A stretch of DNA of 64,000 bases from Cytophaga aurantiaca DSM 3654. GTDB taxonomy: Bacteria > Bacteroidota > Bacteroidia > Cytophagales > Cytophagaceae. Below are positions 46,433 to 54,703 of the stretch, piece after piece. The stretch covers positions 3,144-67,143 of the forward strand of contig NZ_KB903662.1 in assembly GCF_000379725.1 (NCBI RefSeq). Direction: 5' to 3'. Position numbers and translations under genes: made by a program. The notes below the pieces were generated by a model. It made no database searches. It saw only the letters and a list, made by a program, of their open reading frames with translations, and was not told where the DNA came from. Position 1 is the stretch's first letter; each line of letters begins with the position of its first letter.

Positions 46433-47470
46433 TTATTTTTTAGGAATCTGTTTGTCTAAAAACGCATTCGTTGCTTCGTTCCACTCATTAATTAATTTTG
46501 CACGTTTTGTATTCAGCTCTGTGTTTTTTGTATTGTAAGTAGCAACAGATGCATTGTACTTGGCTGCAGCTGCATTGTATTGATCCGCTTCTTCTTTCGT
46601 TACAGTTCCTTTGCCTTTTGCATCGATTACTTTTTTGATTTTTTCGAAATTCTCTTTTGCAAGAAAGAAATCCAACTGACCTTGAATTTGATTGTTTGCT
46701 TCGTCCTGATAGAAGTTCAATAAATTTCTTAATGCAACTTCCAGGGTTCCATCTCCTTTATAAGAAGGAATTGTATCCAATGATTTTAAACCTTCTTTTG
46801 ATGTCTGTATTAGAGCAGTTCTGCTTTGTTGAACCTGACTGATATTGCCTGCAGAAAGTGCTTGTATCATCTGCTGTTCCTGGAAAGAGCTTCTGAAAAG
46901 AAGTAAGTTCATATCACTTTGGAACTTCATTACTTTGCTTGCGATTCTAAGCATTTTATCTTTGCTATCTTCTGTGCTTGGAGCCATGGTGATGTTGTTT
47001 TCAGCAGCAAATGCATTTACTTGGTCATTTACCATGTCAGAACCTTTGCTTATTTTTTGATTCGCAATTTCCTGTGCTGTTACATAAGCCTCCATTAGAT
47101 CATACGATTGCTCGGCGATGGCTTCCATATCCATAATCTTTGCATAGTCGTTTGCCATAACGTTGTATGAAAGATTTAAATACGAGATCAACGAGTCGCG
47201 CAGCGTTGTTTTTCCATTGTATCCTTTCATTTTTGCAATCTTAGTTTTAGAAGCCTTTAAAATGTTCAGCACTTCTTGTCTTTTGGATTCAGCTTTCTTA
47301 GCACTTTTTCCATGGGCAACCTGATTGATGTAATCAAAGTATCCGTTTTTAATTGTACCAAATTCAGAAGTCATGCTATTTAAATATTCTACAGCGGTCT
47401 GAGAAAAAGAAGTAGCAGTGGAAATGAAAAATAGTGCCAGTAAGGCAACACATTTGATTGAAGATTTCAT
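46433..47470 (-). CDS. Secreted helical hypothetical protein
   Basis: A 345-residue protein with signal peptide MKSSIKCVALLALFFISTAT. The mature part is almost entirely helical, with Ala/Lys/Glu/Gln-rich segments (QVAHGKSAKKAESKRQEVLN, TSKEGLKSLDTIPSYKGDGT) and a C-terminal coiled-coil stretch around 300-330 (NAAAAKYNASVATYNTKNTE). It resembles a family annotated in other Bacteroidota and Leptospira as LIC11966-type surface protein, from memory. It is separated from the upstream Prc protease gene by only 3 bases, so the two are cotranscribed and may act together in the periplasm. Confidence 0.72.
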   Translation of the reverse strand: MKSSIKCVALLALFFISTATSFSQTAVEYLNSMTSEFGTIKNGYFDYINQVAHGKSAKKAESKRQEVLNILKASKTKIAKMKGYNGKTTLRDSLISYLNLSYNVMANDYAKIMDMEAIAEQSYDLMEAYVTAQEIANQKISKGSDMVNDQVNAFAAENNITMAPSTEDSKDKMLRIASKVMKFQSDMNLLLFRSSFQEQQMIQALSAGNISQVQQSRTALIQTSKEGLKSLDTIPSYKGDGTLEVALRNLLNFYQDEANNQIQGQLDFFLAKENFEKIKKVIDAKGKGTVTKEEADQYNAAAAKYNASVATYNTKNTELNTKRAKLINEWNEATNAFLDKQIPKK

Positions 47471-47473
47471 ATT

Positions 47474-49594
47474 TTATTTTTGTTTAAGGTTAATAAAGTC
47501 ACACATGATATCATAGGTTTGCTGCAAGATCAGATCTGTTTTCAACTCTTCTAAATAGCTTGTGTAAAGTTTTTTATAGTTGGCATCGTATGTTAAGAAG
47601 TCGCTCTCCAATCGATTGTAATACACGTCAAAACCTGTTCGATTATAGGTTGCTGCAGCATATTCTTTTTCAGATTCTTTTTTGAATTTATTCATATCAC
47701 TCCAGAATCCGGCAACTGTTAAATGCATGACAATGTCATCATTTTGTGTTCTGTGTAATGAATCCGAAACCTGGGTCAGATAGTTATATCGTTTGTTTTC
47801 GTTTATGCGTATTGTGTTCTTGTCACTTAAGGCTGCAACAGGCAGTGCTGGAGGGAATGCGAAAATCGCTTTTTTAGCAATCGAATCTCCTATGATGTAA
47901 AATGGTTCTTTATTTTCTTTTTCTGAAAGAACTTCTAAATAAGGTAATGTGATATCGGGTGTTACACCCTTTCCCTGATAGCTGATTCCTGTAGTTCTGT
48001 ATAGTTTTATTTGAGTAAGCTTGGCTATACCCATATTGTCTGTTGAAGAAAATTTGCTATAAGATACCGTTGTATCTAATGGCGCGAAGCCCTGGCCTGT
48101 AGCTTTGCCATAGGTTTGTTGGCCTACAATAATTGCTCTATGGTTATCTTGCATCGCTGCGCTGAATATTTCAGATGCAGAAGCACTGTGCCCGTTTACC
48201 ATAATGCATAACGGTCCATCGTATACAGTTCCTCTGGCCATATCTTTTGTTAGCGTAGCTTTCTTTGTATTATCCAGAATGTAAAATAATGGTCCGATAT
48301 CAATAAACAAACTGGACATTCCGATTGCTTCATCAAGTGATCCGCCGCCGTTATAGCGTAAGTCTATGACCAATCCTTCTATACCTTCATTTTTTAATTT
48401 TAGAATTTCTTTAGATAATTCATTTGCGCAGCCCAAAGCATTTGGATTGTTTGCATCGCTGTAAAAGGAAGGGATGGAGATGTAGCCAATTTTTTTATCC
48501 GATTTTATGATATAACTTTTAACCGTATTGTTTTCAAATTTGATGGCTTCTTTTTTTAACTTAATCGTTTCAATCGAACCGTTTTCTTTTTTTATAGTCA
48601 GTTCTAATATTGTATATTTTTCGTTTTGCAATAAATTATTTGCCTCTCCATAGGTGAGAGAAGTAATATCCTGCGGCTGCTGATTCAGTTTTATTGCGGT
48701 TACCAGATCTCCGGTTTGAATGATATTTGCAAACCATGCCATGCTGCCCGGAGCAATGTATTCTATAGATAAATTTCCATAGTCCGTTTCCCCAAAGAAG
48801 ATGCCGAACGTCAGTACTTGAGATTGCAGGTGTTGAGAGAATTGTTTGAATGTATTGTAATCGTAATATTCTGTATGCGGATCGTATCGTTTACATATAG
48901 CATTCAGTAGCATGTCTTCAACTGTTGCATTAAAATCTATTGCCGGATCCAATAAAGCATTTATTTTTTTTAATTCTTTCGCAAAGATGATGGCGGCTGT
49001 TTTATTTTTATTGATCAGAAAATCTTTTGGTGCACTTATACTTTTTAGTTGCAACGTATCGAGTGTATAATAAGAAGCATTTAATACAAGGTATTTAATA
49101 AGACGCGACCATCGATTTGTTTTTTTCTCTTTGGATTCCAAAAAATCTCTTTTGCCGGAAGTGAAGGTGATAATTTCATTTTCAGTAAAACTCAATTCAG
49201 AATGAGAAAGCGTTTCTACTATAACCTGACTTTCTTTAACTCTCGTTTTATATAGATCGGCTATTGTAGCAACAAGCTTACATAGATCTTTAGAAGAAGT
49301 AGGTTTGATATTTTGAACTTGTGTTAATAACAGTTGTCTGTCGGATTCATAGAAATGGATTTTTCTATAATCCAATTCAGCTAAAAGCAGATCTATCGTT
49401 TGCTGTGCAACTTCTGTATTAAATTGAATCGGTGCAATGTGATTTTTTTGAAGCAATGTCCATAAGGCATCCATTTTTTTAGAGCATGAAGGCGTTTCCG
49501 TTTTCGGTGTGTTTTGTGCGTAAGTAAAAACAGATAAAAGGAGAGCCACAAATAAAGCGGACAGTCGGAATAGAGCCGAAAAGTAATGTCGCAT
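47474..49594 (-). CDS. C-terminal processing (tail-specific) protease, S41 family
   Basis: A 706-residue periplasmic protease of the Prc/Tsp type. A signal sequence ends near VFTYAQ. An N-terminal helical domain (about 35-235) follows, then a PDZ domain (about 250-340; SIEYIAPGSMAWFANIIQTG) and the S41 catalytic domain. The catalytic serine is in MVNGHSASASEIFSAAMQD near residue 466, and the lysine is in GQQTYGKATGQGF near 496. DLRYNGGGSLDEAIGMSSLF is conserved. A long C-terminal domain (about 560-706) is of the Prc DUF3340 type. Its partner may be the helical protein gene 3 bases downstream. Confidence 0.94.
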   Translation of the reverse strand: MRHYFSALFRLSALFVALLLSVFTYAQNTPKTETPSCSKKMDALWTLLQKNHIAPIQFNTEVAQQTIDLLLAELDYRKIHFYESDRQLLLTQVQNIKPTSSKDLCKLVATIADLYKTRVKESQVIVETLSHSELSFTENEIITFTSGKRDFLESKEKKTNRWSRLIKYLVLNASYYTLDTLQLKSISAPKDFLINKNKTAAIIFAKELKKINALLDPAIDFNATVEDMLLNAICKRYDPHTEYYDYNTFKQFSQHLQSQVLTFGIFFGETDYGNLSIEYIAPGSMAWFANIIQTGDLVTAIKLNQQPQDITSLTYGEANNLLQNEKYTILELTIKKENGSIETIKLKKEAIKFENNTVKSYIIKSDKKIGYISIPSFYSDANNPNALGCANELSKEILKLKNEGIEGLVIDLRYNGGGSLDEAIGMSSLFIDIGPLFYILDNTKKATLTKDMARGTVYDGPLCIMVNGHSASASEIFSAAMQDNHRAIIVGQQTYGKATGQGFAPLDTTVSYSKFSSTDNMGIAKLTQIKLYRTTGISYQGKGVTPDITLPYLEVLSEKENKEPFYIIGDSIAKKAIFAFPPALPVAALSDKNTIRINENKRYNYLTQVSDSLHRTQNDDIVMHLTVAGFWSDMNKFKKESEKEYAAATYNRTGFDVYYNRLESDFLTYDANYKKLYTSYLEELKTDLILQQTYDIMCDFINLKQK

Positions 49595-49991: not shown

Positions 49992-50312
49992 TTAACGAAT
50001 GAAATTTTTAAACCATTCCTGGAAGTATGGCCCAACATAGAAAACCGGTTTTTCCTCTTCTTTTAATGCACTTAACAGACCGATGATCCAGAGCACAAAA
50101 CAGCTGACTTCAAATGCCAAAAAAAGAATATTGATTCGGAAAAATCCCAGAATGATTGAACCGCCAATAAATAGCACCTGCAAGCCCAGGGTCTGACGTA
50201 AGTGGAAGCGTGCAATCGAGTCTTTGGTGTTATTGTCCAGGTATAATACGAAAGCAATGATCCATCCCAACAGTGGAATGTAAGAAAGAAGAGCTATATT
50301 TTTTCCGTTCAT
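49992..50312 (-). CDS. Small membrane protein, DUF4870/Tic20-like
   Basis: A 106-residue protein with three or four hydrophobic segments (about 5-22, 43-60, 62-82). The opening NGKNIALLSYIPLLGWIIAF and the following SIARFHLRQTLGLQVLFIGG match the pattern of the small DUF4870-like membrane family, in which a conserved FH..Q motif follows the first helix. Function is unknown. The start is the ATG at 50312. It is followed by the tiny lipoprotein on the same strand, which may be cotranscribed. Confidence 0.7.
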   Translation of the reverse strand: MNGKNIALLSYIPLLGWIIAFVLYLDNNTKDSIARFHLRQTLGLQVLFIGGSIILGFFRINILFLAFEVSCFVLWIIGLLSALKEEEKPVFYVGPYFQEWFKNFIR

Positions 50313-50389
50313 AAGATTTTGCAGCTAAGCACGATTAATTGATAGTGATGCAAATTTACAAAATCAGATGGATATTTTGTACAATCAAA

Positions 50390-50430
50390 ATCATCTAATA
50401 GAGAGTGTAGGGGGCACTCTCTAAGATGAT
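50390..50430. repeat. Hairpin in the gap before the small membrane protein
   Basis: ATCATCT..AGAGAGTG pairs with CACTCTCT.AGATGAT around TAGGGGG. It lacks a T-run, so it is a weak terminator at best. It lies between the anti-sigma-like gene and the small membrane protein gene. Confidence 0.55.
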
Positions 50431-50535
50431 GCTGTTGTTCCCATCTGCTAAAAAATCATTGTAAATGTGCAGATGGCTATGTAAAACCCCAACAACGACT
50501 ACACGAACATTCGAGTCGATCAGTAGTATCTGGTA

Positions 50536-52758
50536 TTAGAAGCTGAATCGGATTCCGGTCTGAAGCCCTAACATAAATTGAGTTTGTTTGAACGGCACTT
50601 GTTTGTCGAATACATTTGAGAAATAGTAGTAGACGATAGGTTCAGCAAATACAGAACAGGATCTGGAGAATTTATAATAACCGCCAACGGAAAAAGAACC
50701 ACCCAGAGATATATGCTTATCAGAATGGTGCCCAACGATGGAGCTATCCAATGCATTCAGATAGGTTACAGAACTGGTTTGATAGTTGATGAGCAAACTG
50801 GTTCGGGCAAGTAAGGAGAATTTGTCGGAAATGCTGTAGCCATAAGCAACATGAATAGGAATTGAAATGTTCTGGAATTTATCGGTGTGTTTTACTACCT
50901 GAGTTGAAATATTATTAATTACTGTGCTATCTGTTTTCACGTAATGAGTTGTGAAGATGTATTTGTGACTTGTTGAATCGTACGTGCTGTCACGTACATA
51001 ATTTCCTTGATAGCTCATGTAGCTTGAATCGATATGATTTTGCGTAATGGTCGACGGCTGACTTAAGCTGGAATATTGCAAGCCAATACCAACTTCTATT
51101 TTTTGCGTTAAGGCATAATTCATACGGAGACCGGTTGTAATGCCAAAACCTGTTCCTGCATTTTTATTGCGTTCTTTTATAGCGTTGTTTAATGAGGTTT
51201 CCGAAGTGTTTGGAGATAGATGCATATAACCTAGTACAGGTGTTGCGTATCCATCAAAGCTGCATCTGGAAAGGAAAAGAGATTTCTTTTTGCTTTCTTC
51301 AGTTGTTGTTGCATTTGTTGTTTTTGCTAAGTTTTCTGCTGTAAGAGAATCAATTTCTTTTGCCAGAATGGTTGAATCCATTTTTGCTATGGTCGTATTG
51401 GTTACAGTGTTTTTTGATTGTGCAAAGGCATTCGCATCATTAAGATCTGAATTCGTATTGGATGCATTTGTTAAGCCGGTTGTATTATTTGCAGAATCAA
51501 CAGATTCCTTTGCAGAAGCTGAGTTCTTTACTTTGCTGGATACTAAGGACTGTTCTATTGTAGAAGCAGTATTCGCTTGCGTTGCAAGGTTCGTATTTGA
51601 GAGTAGAGAACTTGCATCAGAAGCAGTGCTTATTGAATTTATTGCATTTAATGACACGATTGCATTCCGGATTTGAGAAGCATTCAAATTCGGAGCTTTA
51701 TCTGAAGTATTGTTATTGCCCGACTCTGTAGACTTCGCTGAAGCTGCATTTGTTATAGACGTATTCGATAACGAATTTTTAGTGTTTAATAAATTGTCAT
51801 CTTGAATAAGGGTAGACGTAAATTGTTTTATAGAGTCTGCATAAACAGAAGTACGTAAATTGCTCTGAGAAATAGTTGTATTGAGAGATTGTGTTTTTAA
51901 TAATTCACTGGTACTTTTTGTATTGTCGTAACTGCTAGTCGCTGCGCTGTTCGCTGTGTTAGAAGATGAATTATTTAATTGATCCGAAGATGAAACGACA
52001 GCAGAATTATCTGAAATTGAGTTGGCGTGTTTATCCGTTAAAGATAGGTCAGAATCTGCTGTTTGAGTAGATTGGACGTTAGATGATTTAGGTGAAGACG
52101 CGTTTCTTTCAGTTGATTTAGCATTTGTATTTGTTGAACCTGAAACAATCGTTTGTTTTTTTGTTAAATAAGTTGCTCCGGATGTATGACTTACTGCACC
52201 TGCTCTAGAAGCATTGCTATGAACATTCGATTCGGTCGGATCGTTTGCATGGAAATTCTTATCTGTTGCTTGCGTATTTTTGTTTTTTGAATATATAGCA
52301 GCAGTAGTTGAATTGTTTTGATCAATGTGCGAATCGGTGCTGCTATTTGTTTGTAAAAGAACAGGAGCAGAAGTGTTTTCTGTAGTGTTGAGCGAAGAAG
52401 TGTTTGTGCTGTGATCGGTTTCTTTGTTAGAAGAAGTCTCTGTCCCGTTTGTAGTATTGTCGGTTGAATGTGCAATGGGATTATTAATTACAGAAGAAGA
52501 AGAAGTTTCTGAGGCAACCGTTGTTTGATTGTTGTGCGTGTCTTTTGTAGTATATAAATATGTCGCAATAGCAATGGTGCTGATAACAAGTATTGAGAAC
52601 AGGAATGGATTTTTTAAGAAGGAACTTCCTCCTGCATTTCCGCCTTCTGAAGGGATATTCGATTCAATGGAAGCCCATAAATCAGAAGGGACCTGAACTT
52701 CGTGTCCTTCAAATTTATCTTTTATGACTTGATCCATACGATCTGTATTTTCTTTCAT
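50536..52758 (-). CDS. Putative anti-sigma factor with long linker and C-terminal outer-membrane barrel
   Basis: A 740-residue protein with an unusual layout. Residues 1-50 are polar and probably cytoplasmic (DQVIKDKFEGHEVQVPSDLW). One membrane helix spans about 51-69 (PFLFSILVISTIAIATYLY). About 415 residues (70-485) are extremely rich in Ser, Thr, Asn and Ala with no predicted fold. The last 250 residues look like an eight-strand outer-membrane barrel (GTGFGITTGLRMNYALTQKI, HVAYGYSISDKFSLLARTSL) and end GIRFSF with a terminal aromatic. Its start overlaps the end of the sigma gene by 4 bases, so it is coupled to it. The anti-sigma role is inferred. Confidence 0.75.
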   Translation of the reverse strand: MKENTDRMDQVIKDKFEGHEVQVPSDLWASIESNIPSEGGNAGGSSFLKNPFLFSILVISTIAIATYLYTTKDTHNNQTTVASETSSSSVINNPIAHSTDNTTNGTETSSNKETDHSTNTSSLNTTENTSAPVLLQTNSSTDSHIDQNNSTTAAIYSKNKNTQATDKNFHANDPTESNVHSNASRAGAVSHTSGATYLTKKQTIVSGSTNTNAKSTERNASSPKSSNVQSTQTADSDLSLTDKHANSISDNSAVVSSSDQLNNSSSNTANSAATSSYDNTKSTSELLKTQSLNTTISQSNLRTSVYADSIKQFTSTLIQDDNLLNTKNSLSNTSITNAASAKSTESGNNNTSDKAPNLNASQIRNAIVSLNAINSISTASDASSLLSNTNLATQANTASTIEQSLVSSKVKNSASAKESVDSANNTTGLTNASNTNSDLNDANAFAQSKNTVTNTTIAKMDSTILAKEIDSLTAENLAKTTNATTTEESKKKSLFLSRCSFDGYATPVLGYMHLSPNTSETSLNNAIKERNKNAGTGFGITTGLRMNYALTQKIEVGIGLQYSSLSQPSTITQNHIDSSYMSYQGNYVRDSTYDSTSHKYIFTTHYVKTDSTVINNISTQVVKHTDKFQNISIPIHVAYGYSISDKFSLLARTSLLINYQTSSVTYLNALDSSIVGHHSDKHISLGGSFSVGGYYKFSRSCSVFAEPIVYYYFSNVFDKQVPFKQTQFMLGLQTGIRFSF

Positions 52759-53297
52759 AATGTTATGATTCCTTTCTGGAGAAGTTTACTTTTTAATAAT
52801 CCTCTTCCTTTAGCCAGTTGTGATTTTGAAGTTCCCTCTGAAATCGACAACAGTTCACTTATCTCTTTGTGTGTATATCCTTCAATAACATACATGTTGA
52901 ATATCATACGGTAGCCATCGGGTAATGTTTGAATGACATCCAGCAATTCATCAGCAGACATTTTTGAAATGATATCAACAACATCATCGCTTTCTTCTTC
53001 GGTATAATAGAGGTCTGTCTGCGATTGCTTTACTTTATCTTTGTGGTAATGATTAATTGCTGTTGTTACTACAATTCGTTTTAACCAGCCTTCAAACGAA
53101 CCTTTGTATTCATAGGATTTAATGGAATTGAATATTTTTATGAATGCCTCCTGAAGAATGTCTTCAGCTTCAAACGTTGTAAATGAATACCGCATGGCAA
53201 TAGCTAGCAACCTCCCTGCATACTGTTTGTACAGGGATTCAAAGGATTGTCGGTTTCCTTTTTTACAGCCTTCTATTAACTCTTTTTCTATATTCAT
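52755..53297 (-). CDS. RNA polymerase ECF-type sigma-70 factor
   Basis: A 180-residue ECF sigma factor. Region 2 covers about 20-90 (YKQYAGRLLAIAMRYSFTTF, EDILQEAFIKIFNSIKSYEY, GWLKRIVVTTAINHYHKDK). Region 4 is near 120-170 (GYRMIFNMYVIEGYTHKEIS, then ELLSISEGTSKSQLAKGRGL). Its length is normal. The last 4 bases overlap the start of the barrel/linker protein, its presumed regulator. A terminator lies just upstream of its start, so it is not simply a continuation of the lipoprotein gene's transcript and probably has its own promoter or reads through. Confidence 0.94.
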   Translation of the reverse strand: MNIEKELIEGCKKGNRQSFESLYKQYAGRLLAIAMRYSFTTFEAEDILQEAFIKIFNSIKSYEYKGSFEGWLKRIVVTTAINHYHKDKVKQSQTDLYYTEEESDDVVDIISKMSADELLDVIQTLPDGYRMIFNMYVIEGYTHKEISELLSISEGTSKSQLAKGRGLLKSKLLQKGIITL

Positions 53298-53303
53298 TTA
53301 AAA

Positions 53304-53337
53304 AGTAACGGGAAAGTAAATTCATCACTTTCCCGTA
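53304..53337 (-). terminator. Intrinsic terminator of the lipoprotein gene
   Basis: ACGGGAAAGT and ACTTTCCCGT are perfect 10-base arms around a 9-base loop. On the minus strand a T-rich run (TACTTTTTAAA) follows. The sigma ATG comes just after it. Confidence 0.82.
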
Positions 53338-53347
53338 AAATATACCA

Positions 53348-54349
53348 CTAAATATCTATTTGTGAAAGATAGCTTTCAATTTGTGATTCCTCTATTTCAA
53401 CAAAATCGAGATCTTCAATATTTAGATTCGAACCGCAATGCATAACATGATGCTTCAAGGCTATATAATATTTTCCATCATGATAATTAAGGGCTGCAAT
53501 ATTCAGGCTCATATTGTTTGGAATGGAGTTGCAAAAGAAATCCAGATTTGTAGAGTTGATGTAAAAGTTCCCGACAGAATTTGTTGCCGGGATAGTATAA
53601 TACACTTTTGTATAGGTTGTCTTGTATATGGTGTCGCATCGTATCGTTAACCTGCATACATCCGGATAGGATGCAAAATAATCACAATTAATCCATCCGA
53701 ATTTTGTGCATTTGATTACATATTGATTTACGTTATTTATAATTGCCCAATCCAGATTTTGATAATAAGCAGAGGTATCCCATCTGTTTCGTGTAGAGTC
53801 AGCCGGTATAGTAACATTGCTGTTTACCGTATCAGCTTGTACAGGCTTCCACACAACAGTGCCTAACGAATCTCTTCCTGTAAATACATTCATAGAATCG
53901 GTAGTGCCTCTGGGAGCTGCAACGGATATGAAAAAACTGGCATTATTTGCTAATGATAATGGAGCGCCGTTTTGTGAAGCTGCTACATAAAACTCTCCTC
54001 CGGAAGTTAAGATCTTTCCGTTAGAAATTGTAGGCGCATTGTTTACGATCATCTCAGATAGTTTCGTTACTTCTTTTAATTCCACTGTCACATTTCCTGT
54101 TACACGTGCGCCTGATGCTGTACGCAGCGTGCCTGCTCCAATCATTACTTTAGTACCTTTCTTTCCGGTAATAACAGTACTTTGACTGGCATCGAATGTG
54201 AATTTTTGAGTCTTGATTCGTTGATTTGAAAAGTAATTAGTAAAAGAATTGTCTGATGGCTCAACACTTTCCGGTTTTTTTGTGCAGGCATTTATAGAGA
54301 GTAAAATTCCCAAGGGAAAAATCAGGGAGTACAAGAATCTTTTTTTCAT
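53348..54349 (-). CDS. Lipoprotein with ZU5-like domain
   Basis: A 333-residue lipoprotein (signal ending LSINAC, cysteine 22). The mature region has the ZU5-like pattern of Bacteroidota surface proteins: TVITGKKGTKVMIGAGTLRT, ASGARVTGNVTVELKEVTKL, then SEMIVNNAPTISNGKILTSG. The second half has six or more cysteines (VIKCTKFGWINCDYF, DVCRLTIRCDTIY, CNSIPNN, HVMHCGSN) that may pair as disulfides. Function is unknown; it may be a surface adhesion or stress protein. It lies 50 bases upstream of the sigma gene with a terminator between. Confidence 0.78.
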   Translation of the reverse strand: MKKRFLYSLIFPLGILLSINACTKKPESVEPSDNSFTNYFSNQRIKTQKFTFDASQSTVITGKKGTKVMIGAGTLRTASGARVTGNVTVELKEVTKLSEMIVNNAPTISNGKILTSGGEFYVAASQNGAPLSLANNASFFISVAAPRGTTDSMNVFTGRDSLGTVVWKPVQADTVNSNVTIPADSTRNRWDTSAYYQNLDWAIINNVNQYVIKCTKFGWINCDYFASYPDVCRLTIRCDTIYKTTYTKVYYTIPATNSVGNFYINSTNLDFFCNSIPNNMSLNIAALNYHDGKYYIALKHHVMHCGSNLNIEDLDFVEIEESQIESYLSQIDI

Positions 54350-54432
54350 ATCAATAAATTGTTTTGTTATGATTAGAAGACAGGTATATATGAAATAGGG
54401 TTGCCTCAGATAAATAAGTTTCTGGTAGCAAC

Positions 54433-54663
54433 TTATTTATCGTCAAAGTTTGAGATTTTATTTGGGTATTTTGATTTGTATACTGAAAAGGCATAATATA
54501 AGGTGGTGGTTAATAGTATTATAACTCCAATTGGCATAAAGATTCGATTTTCAGATTTAGGGTAGTATGGAGTAGACCGGTATTTGGTCAAAAGGGTTGC
54601 CTGGGAGTTGAAAAAAATAAAAAATAATTTAAGATCGCTTGAAAAAGAAAAATCCCTGTTCAT
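54433..54663 (-). CDS. Doubtful small membrane protein
   Basis: A 76-codon open frame with one hydrophobic segment (FMPIGVIILLTTTLYYAFSV) and a charged tail (KSKYPNKISNFDDK), which does look protein-like. Against it, its ATG lies in the loop of the cysN terminator, and no ribosome site is seen. A shorter product from the internal ATG before PIGVIILL is possible. It may be a remnant. Nothing is known of its function. Confidence 0.3.
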   Translation of the reverse strand: MNRDFSFSSDLKLFFIFFNSQATLLTKYRSTPYYPKSENRIFMPIGVIILLTTTLYYAFSVYKSKYPNKISNFDDK

Positions 54664-54686
54664 ATGAATTGAACAGGGATTTTATA
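54648..54686 (-). terminator. Intrinsic terminator of cysN
   Basis: AAATCCCTGTTC and GAACAGGGATTT are perfect 12-base arms around a 9-base loop. On the minus strand a T-rich tail (TTTCTTTTTC) follows. It lies 20-55 bases after the cysN stop and ends the cysC-cysD-cysN transcript. Confidence 0.9.
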
Positions 54687-54703
54687 TTAAGTATCGTAAC
54701 GAC

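Follow-up and report, generated by a model that had tools for sequence, protein, structure and literature searches.

The sigma factor and its overlapping partner gene

The locus discussed here lies in a 64,000-nucleotide stretch of DNA from Cytophaga aurantiaca DSM 3654 (NCBI RefSeq assembly GCF_000379725.1, contig NZ_KB903662.1, positions 3,144 to 67,143 of the forward strand), referred to as the window, and all coordinates are those of the window unless another locus is named. Two minus-strand open reading frames (ORFs) encode a 180-residue extracytoplasmic function (ECF) sigma factor (52755..53297) and a 740-residue partner (50536..52758), which, judged by its reading frame, an AlphaFold2 model and an N-terminal profile, is a putative anti-sigma factor of the Dma type. 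As described in an initial annotation made from the sequence without database searches, the two ORFs overlap by four bases (52755-52758), and the sigma assignment is borne out by Pfam matches over cut-off for Sigma70_r2 (E 4.6e-15) and Sigma70_r4_2 (E 4.3e-15). The top NCBIfam model for the sigma protein, TIGR02985 (Sig70_bacteroi1), scores 106.5 bits and stays under its cut-off of 126.4. For the 740-residue protein, neither Pfam nor NCBIfam gave a single match at E 1.

Anatomy of the partner protein

AlphaFold2, run on a 41-sequence alignment, divides the partner into four parts. Over the whole chain the mean predicted local distance difference test score (pLDDT) is 58.8 and the predicted template modelling score 0.47, and these values are low because of a long tether. 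Residues 1-50 (52609..52758, minus strand, as are all parts of the gene) form two helices at 7-16 and 25-34, which the model and the N-terminal profile mark as a putative cytoplasmic anti-sigma module. A predicted inner-membrane helix follows at residues 51-72 (52543..52608), supported by the model and by hydropathy, in agreement with the single membrane helix that the initial annotation had placed behind an N-terminus of about 50 residues. The tether itself, delimited by pLDDT and composition, spans residues 73-498 (51265..52542). Its pLDDT lies near 40 across 73-445 with short breaks, indicative of disorder, and juxta-barrel helices at 462-497 with a pLDDT of about 60 close it. The linker rich in serine, threonine, asparagine and alanine that had been read from the sequence was right in composition (these residues make up 60% of positions 71-490, which contain five prolines), while its proposed length of about 415 residues has to be corrected to 426 according to the model or 434 according to a rule combining hydropathy and alignment.

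The remainder of the chain, residues 499-740 (50539..51264), is a predicted OmpA-like, eight-stranded outer-membrane β-barrel with FSF as its C-terminus, based on structure and profile matches. AlphaFold2 places eleven strands in 499-739, the barrel wall fits eight, and most barrel blocks reach a pLDDT of 82-98 with lower values in the loops. Using VIA-align, residues 494-740 were superimposed on the N-domain of OprF (Z 18.0, 2.2 Å, 132 residues) and on OmpA 1qjp (Z 17.1, 2.4 Å, 134 residues), and Foldseek also places this part on OmpA-type barrels. In addition, an hhalign comparison of the barrel with 11 mostly Bacteroidales-labelled members, in an alignment headed by an uncultured Parabacteroides (L121), gave 99.8% at E 5.2e-29. 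Structure prediction, which the initial annotation had proposed as a check, hence returned the outer-membrane barrel ending in an aromatic residue that had been suggested there.

Partner architectures at related sigma loci

Related sigma factors were scanned for with ten aligned sigma sequences (alignment A1). Of 589 confirmed loci, the best 80 were considered, so that the sample favours the closest sigma factors. A partner was called barrel-type if its ORF is closed, encodes at least 390 residues and has a helix that begins between residues 30 and 110; six proteins with ends resembling those of the type IX secretion system (T9SS) were excluded. By this rule, 41 loci carry a barrel-type partner, 22 a short one (<390 residues) and seven a partner with a T9SS-like C-terminus, one of these seven being shorter than 390 residues. 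Among the other ten, three ORFs are cut by contig ends, four loci are without a partner ORF and three were set aside (L099, L128, L132); L132 and the three contig-cut ORFs carry the N-terminal module, so the classing of these ten is rough. In alignment A3, which comprises the window protein and 40 members (L115 was left out), OMP_b-brl_2 is matched by 27 of 41 sequences and OMP_b-brl by 15 of 41 at E ≤ 0.01. Hence, a barrel-type call by this rule is no proof of a barrel in every protein. For comparisons of length and helix position, 53 barrel-type proteins were assembled, i. e. the window protein, 11 from searched relatives and those from the 41 sigma-scan loci; as L048 equals L065, 52 of these are distinct.

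The part that unites these proteins is the N-terminus. A profile was built from residues 1-75 of 40 barrel-type members, excluding the window protein and its close relatives. It gives the window protein an E-value of 5e-14, whereas the top score among 52 window ORFs serving as decoys is 0.055. It also recognises the six close relatives of the window protein (E ≤ 1.4e-8), the seven T9SS-like-ended proteins without exception (E ≤ 1.6e-7) and every one of the 22 short partners (E ≤ 1.2e-9), which indicates that one N-terminal module is used with several different ends. The C. aurantiaca genome has 25 Sigma70_r2 matches; of the 24 stretches other than the window, 21 contain a recognisable ECF ORF. 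None of these 21 loci has a downstream ORF of barrel-type appearance; the sole downstream ORF above 390 residues among them (L176) matches cytochrome c.

Relation to the Dma/Das family and other known systems

The layout recalls the Dma family. As described in one study, Dma proteins consist of an anti-sigma module, one membrane helix, a disordered tether and a C-terminal barrel, and their genes adjoin those of ECF21 sigma factors and occur solely among Bacteroidota (PMC13088901). According to the same study, deletion of dma2 in B. thetaiotaomicron raises vesicle production in a manner dependent on the sigma factor das2, and the founding report, published in PNAS in 2024, is reference 16 there (PMC13088901). 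All five of these features, namely N-terminal module, membrane helix, disordered tether, barrel and adjoining ECF gene, recur in the window pair. Likened in this way to the published description, the locus probably encodes a sigma/anti-sigma pair of the Dma/Das kind. The protein class is already described from gut Bacteroides in 2024, and the window protein is a new, unusually long member of it. The idea put forward in the initial annotation, that one chain may reach from the sigma factor to the outer membrane, thus agrees with the predicted structure, the homologues and the N-terminal profile, whereas the novelty suggested for it does not stand, given the available account of Dma. The search for homologues proposed there likewise found the same layout after related ECF genes in other Bacteroidota.

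Compared with Dma/Das, the window pair shares the ECF gene and the order of N-terminal module, single helix, long disordered tether and C-terminal barrel, but it comes from a different lineage of the Bacteroidota. The further operon gene is BT_1557 in the known system and a predicted lipoprotein without Pfam match here. Control of outer-membrane vesicles is the known phenotype of Dma. The window tether of 426-434 residues is the longest of the 53 measured here, a set that does not include the B. thetaiotaomicron lengths. TonB-dependent transducer systems of the FecR type likewise pass an outer-membrane input to an ECF sigma factor via an inner-membrane anti-sigma factor. They employ two proteins with a TonB-dependent receptor, in contrast to the single chain with an eight-stranded barrel. 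RseA and DegS of E. coli offer another parallel, as a one-helix anti-sigma factor there releases its sigma factor upon outer-membrane trouble and proteolysis; RseA, however, is without a barrel, and barrel C-termini act in trans. If the assignment to the Dma/Das kind holds, a two-membrane signalling design with experimental backing in gut Bacteroides would extend to another branch of the phylum, where the 41 barrel-type partners (by rule) among the 80 sampled sigma relatives suggest that it is common.

Proposed mechanism

A plausible mechanism starts with residues 1-50, which would sequester the sigma factor at the inner membrane. Helix 51-72 may serve as an uncleaved signal-anchor, with the chain being exported by Sec, and the β-barrel assembly machinery (BAM) could then insert the barrel through its C-terminal strand, so that one molecule would join the cytoplasm to the outer membrane. 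In general, Sec export can begin from an uncleaved signal-anchor, and the free C-terminus can then pass to BAM. The initial annotation had asked how a barrel could be inserted without a cleaved signal peptide, and a signal-anchor followed by BAM is a plain possible answer. In the outer membrane, the barrel would act as both anchor and sensor. The system may be triggered when the barrel fails to insert, is displaced or pulled, or binds a ligand or the neighbouring lipoprotein; such a change in the outer membrane could expose or strain the tether, leading to proteolysis or to release of the N-terminal module and thereby to free sigma factor. The latter would transcribe its own cassette and few other genes from AGGCAAC-N15/16-CCTGTCT promoters. 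We infer the sequestration and the spanning of both membranes from the likeness of layout to Dma, and the trigger and the protease are guesses.

Alternative explanations

Several observations weigh against a Dma/Das-like pair. Between the window protein and its relatives from other genera, the folded parts are only 20-29% identical, and a whole-protein search at E 0.001 finds matches in six of 59 genomes, one of them that of the window itself; a shared function is hence not assured. The barrel is a predicted one, the window protein misses the Pfam barrel families, and 14 of the 41 A3 members also miss OMP_b-brl_2 at E 0.01. Finally, the window helix contains an A-x-A motif (AIA, read from the sequence), which leaves room for cleavage.

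This last point leads to the alternative that survives best, albeit as an unlikely one: the helix may be cleaved or the chain cut constitutively, in which case barrel and tether would constitute an ordinary outer-membrane protein, leaving the N-terminal piece to act by itself as a short anti-sigma factor. That the module works without a barrel is suggested by the 22 of 80 loci with a partner below 390 residues, all of which match the module, and AIA lies inside the window helix. However, no more than 16 of the 53 barrel-type members have an A-x-A close to the end of the helix, the median stretch before the helix measures 48 residues, which is long for a signal peptide, and 41 of the 80 loci keep the module in one chain with a barrel-type end.

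Less probable still is a scheme in which tether and barrel chiefly provide anchorage, with the neighbouring lipoprotein as the route of regulation. The gene for this predicted lipoprotein ("LIPO", 333 residues, 53348..54349, minus strand) is a conserved partner that precedes the sigma gene in six of seven close relatives, the window included, to form a three-gene cassette, and two other proteins encoded close to sigma genes in the window genome share a related domain, which one of the two combines with a cytochrome c domain. However, in G017, the exception among the close relatives, pair and promoter occur with no lipoprotein gene at that place, and 38 of the 41 barrel-type loci are without a lipoprotein match in the stretch examined. 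A chance juxtaposition or a misread low-complexity ORF, as the nature of the tether and the absence of a family match for the window protein might suggest, is nearly inconceivable, given the confident AlphaFold2 barrel and a gene order and layout that recur in the six other close relatives as well as in many further Bacteroidota.

Length and evolution of the tether

Among the 53 barrel-type proteins, tether length ranges from 112 to 434 residues with a median of 186. The periplasm is some 20-30 nm wide, and even the shortest tether would measure about 40 nm when stretched at 0.36 nm per residue, hence sufficing to cross it. In one sister genus, four proteins (L047, L048, L060, L061) are pairwise 47-81% identical in their folded parts, whereas their tethers are 25-34% identical, as compared to 23-25% for shuffled controls. 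Despite this near-random identity, the tether lengths fall within 377-400 residues. One pair is 80% identical in N-terminal module and helix and 81% in the barrel, with tethers of 395 and 400 residues that are 34% identical (shuffled 25%). In this small comparison, the tether seems to be selected for length and for flexibility or disorder, not for sequence. No such inference can be drawn from the window protein and other genera, since every part is only about 20-34% identical there.

In the sister genus, the 75 residues that immediately precede the barrel also contain repeated Asp-Ser-hydrophobic steps, a pattern that recurs in part in the window protein. The O-glycosylation motif of Bacteroidota is D-S/T-(A,I,L,V,M,T). 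A glycosylated tether was considered and rejected for the window protein, whose tether holds four such motifs versus 3.3 expected (p 0.43). The motif is enriched in the tethers of five of six close relatives (p 0.002 or less), and pooled counts are 72 versus 42.9 expected for 52 tethers and 48 versus 26.3 for the barrels; as barrels are enriched too, it is not tether-specific.

Relatives with type IX secretion-like ends

The seven partners with T9SS-like ends (L068:7530-9164, L078:7523-9205, L096:2349-4040, L129:7552-8649, L134:7421-8683, L140:7518-8804 and L144:7518-8804) likewise comprise the N-terminal module, a helix and, by eye, a low-complexity stretch, and adjoin an ECF gene. Their C-termini, however, match type A or B sorting domains instead of a barrel, and PKD domains are found in six of the seven. 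The NCBIfam sorting models of type A or B are over cut-off in L068, L078, L096 and L129 and below it in L134, L140 and L144, while Pfam CHU_C or Por_Secre_tail is over cut-off in four of seven (L078, L096, L129, L134). As L140 and L144 are near-identical, the number of independent cases is six. SprA was found over cut-off in each of the seven genomes, which is weak support because SprA is common in Bacteroidota.

If exported, a T9SS-like-ended chain would run from the cytoplasm to the cell surface, and these proteins, if real, would be anti-sigma factors threaded through the entire envelope. A dull alternative is a periplasmic immunoglobulin-like domain that merely resembles a sorting domain. 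In listings from an open-licence library, no paper on such proteins came up. It is conceivable, if rather doubtful, that N-terminal module and helix constitute a plug that can be joined to a barrel or a T9SS C-terminal domain, with the tether acting as a length-tuned, sequence-free spring, such that the system would report strain, width or breakage of the envelope and not a particular ligand.

Five sigma-linked proteins with CHU_C-like ends were also noted in the window genome (L183:2602-3732, L184:2643-3749, L186:4544-5650, L188:4526-5659 and L189:4512-5627). Their helix lies near residue 80-100, CHU_C is over the Pfam cut-off in two of the five, and their N-termini score 0.0039 to 0.24 against the module profile, near the decoys.

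Candidate promoter

Upstream of the cassette, the conserved element AGGCAAC-N15-CCTGTCT (54378..54406, minus strand) is a candidate ECF promoter. It was recovered in all six testable genomes, i. e. the window, G006, G009, G012, G015 and G017 (G004 fell outside the test): the element is exact in G006, G009, G012 and G015, with an N16 spacer in G009, and has one mismatch in G017. In the window, GGCAACN{14,17}CNTGTCT matches once versus 0.01 expected. Across nine genomes, GGCAACN{14,17}CCTGTC gave 15 matches versus six for the backward pattern; seven of these lie outside ORFs of at least 120 residues, five being cassette promoters, and the other eight are inside ORFs. The two non-cassette intergenic matches precede a WG-repeat-like protein in the window genome and a PKD-like protein in G009. 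Congener G001 has no match to this pattern and congener G002 has one, inside an ORF. A 14-base form with one mismatch allowed gave 19 matches versus six backwards, four of the 19 being in the window genome; apart from the cassette promoters, the matches placed were those in the window region and on contig C21. The tight form thus marks the cassette well, and no wider regulon is claimed. Autoregulation, the natural reading for an ECF gene, is suggested by this arrangement, with recognition by the window sigma factor presumed.

The only other exact AGGCAAC-N15-CCTGTCT in the window genome lies 184 bases upstream of an 838-residue protein (L206:908-3424, contig C21), which we take to be WG-repeat-like. 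In the congeners, its best matches cover about 200 of the 838 residues at 31% and 28% identity, so no orthologue was seen there. A second promoter-like site, AGGCAACCC...CCGGTCT, is located at 54574-54602, about 170 bases upstream of the cassette promoter, and by eye a short ORF for a 34-residue membrane peptide lies between the two.

Cassette and genomic neighbourhood

Between the CysN-like and DUF4870-like genes of the congeners G001 and G002, the three-gene cassette (49992-54703 region) is missing. The flanks run there without interruption as CysN-like gene (a name we assume), DUF4870-like gene (a match below cut-off), S41 protease and 345-residue protein, and a methyltransferase gene has another place in G002 than in the window. 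The closest sigma factor of the congeners is 32% identical to that of the window, as is a paralogue in the window genome. As the cassette of G009, another genus, stands directly before an S41 gene, loss in the congeners is favoured over gain in the window, though not proven.

The genes for the S41 tail-specific protease and the 345-residue protein (46433-49594) form a recurrent pair in this family, with a relative of the latter within the 1.5-kb flanks of 11 of 18 protease loci. A dedicated role of this protease in the system was considered and set aside: protease and 345-residue neighbour lie downstream in the window and G009 only (two of seven close relatives), no S41 match was found in the 2-4 kb downstream of the Dma genes of the other five, and both congeners possess the pair without the cassette. 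A weak lead remains.

In the intergenic region between lipoprotein and sigma gene, a consensus scan located a terminator-like hairpin of 12 pairs (53308..53336, minus strand). The scanned region holds seven terminator-like sites versus 5.5 expected by chance. A T-rich tail follows the hairpin, which by this consensus match is a candidate attenuator of sigma/Dma expression.

The AlphaFold2 model of the lipoprotein consists mostly of strands and is modest (mean pLDDT 65.6, four sequences). Pfam gave no match for this protein, and a fold search returned weak matches only, e. g. the GAIN domain 4dlo (E 2.1e-4, TM-score 0.31 by query), which were not used. In G004 the lipoprotein gene is apparently cut by a contig end, and in L089 and L139 it lies downstream of the pair. 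The two large proteins of the window genome that lie near other sigma genes and have a related domain are L176:2028-3902 (E 2e-19) and L190:1445-3688 (E 8.9e-11), among 239 ORFs including the lipoprotein itself. It is the former that adds the cytochrome c domain, as if it were a haem sensor.

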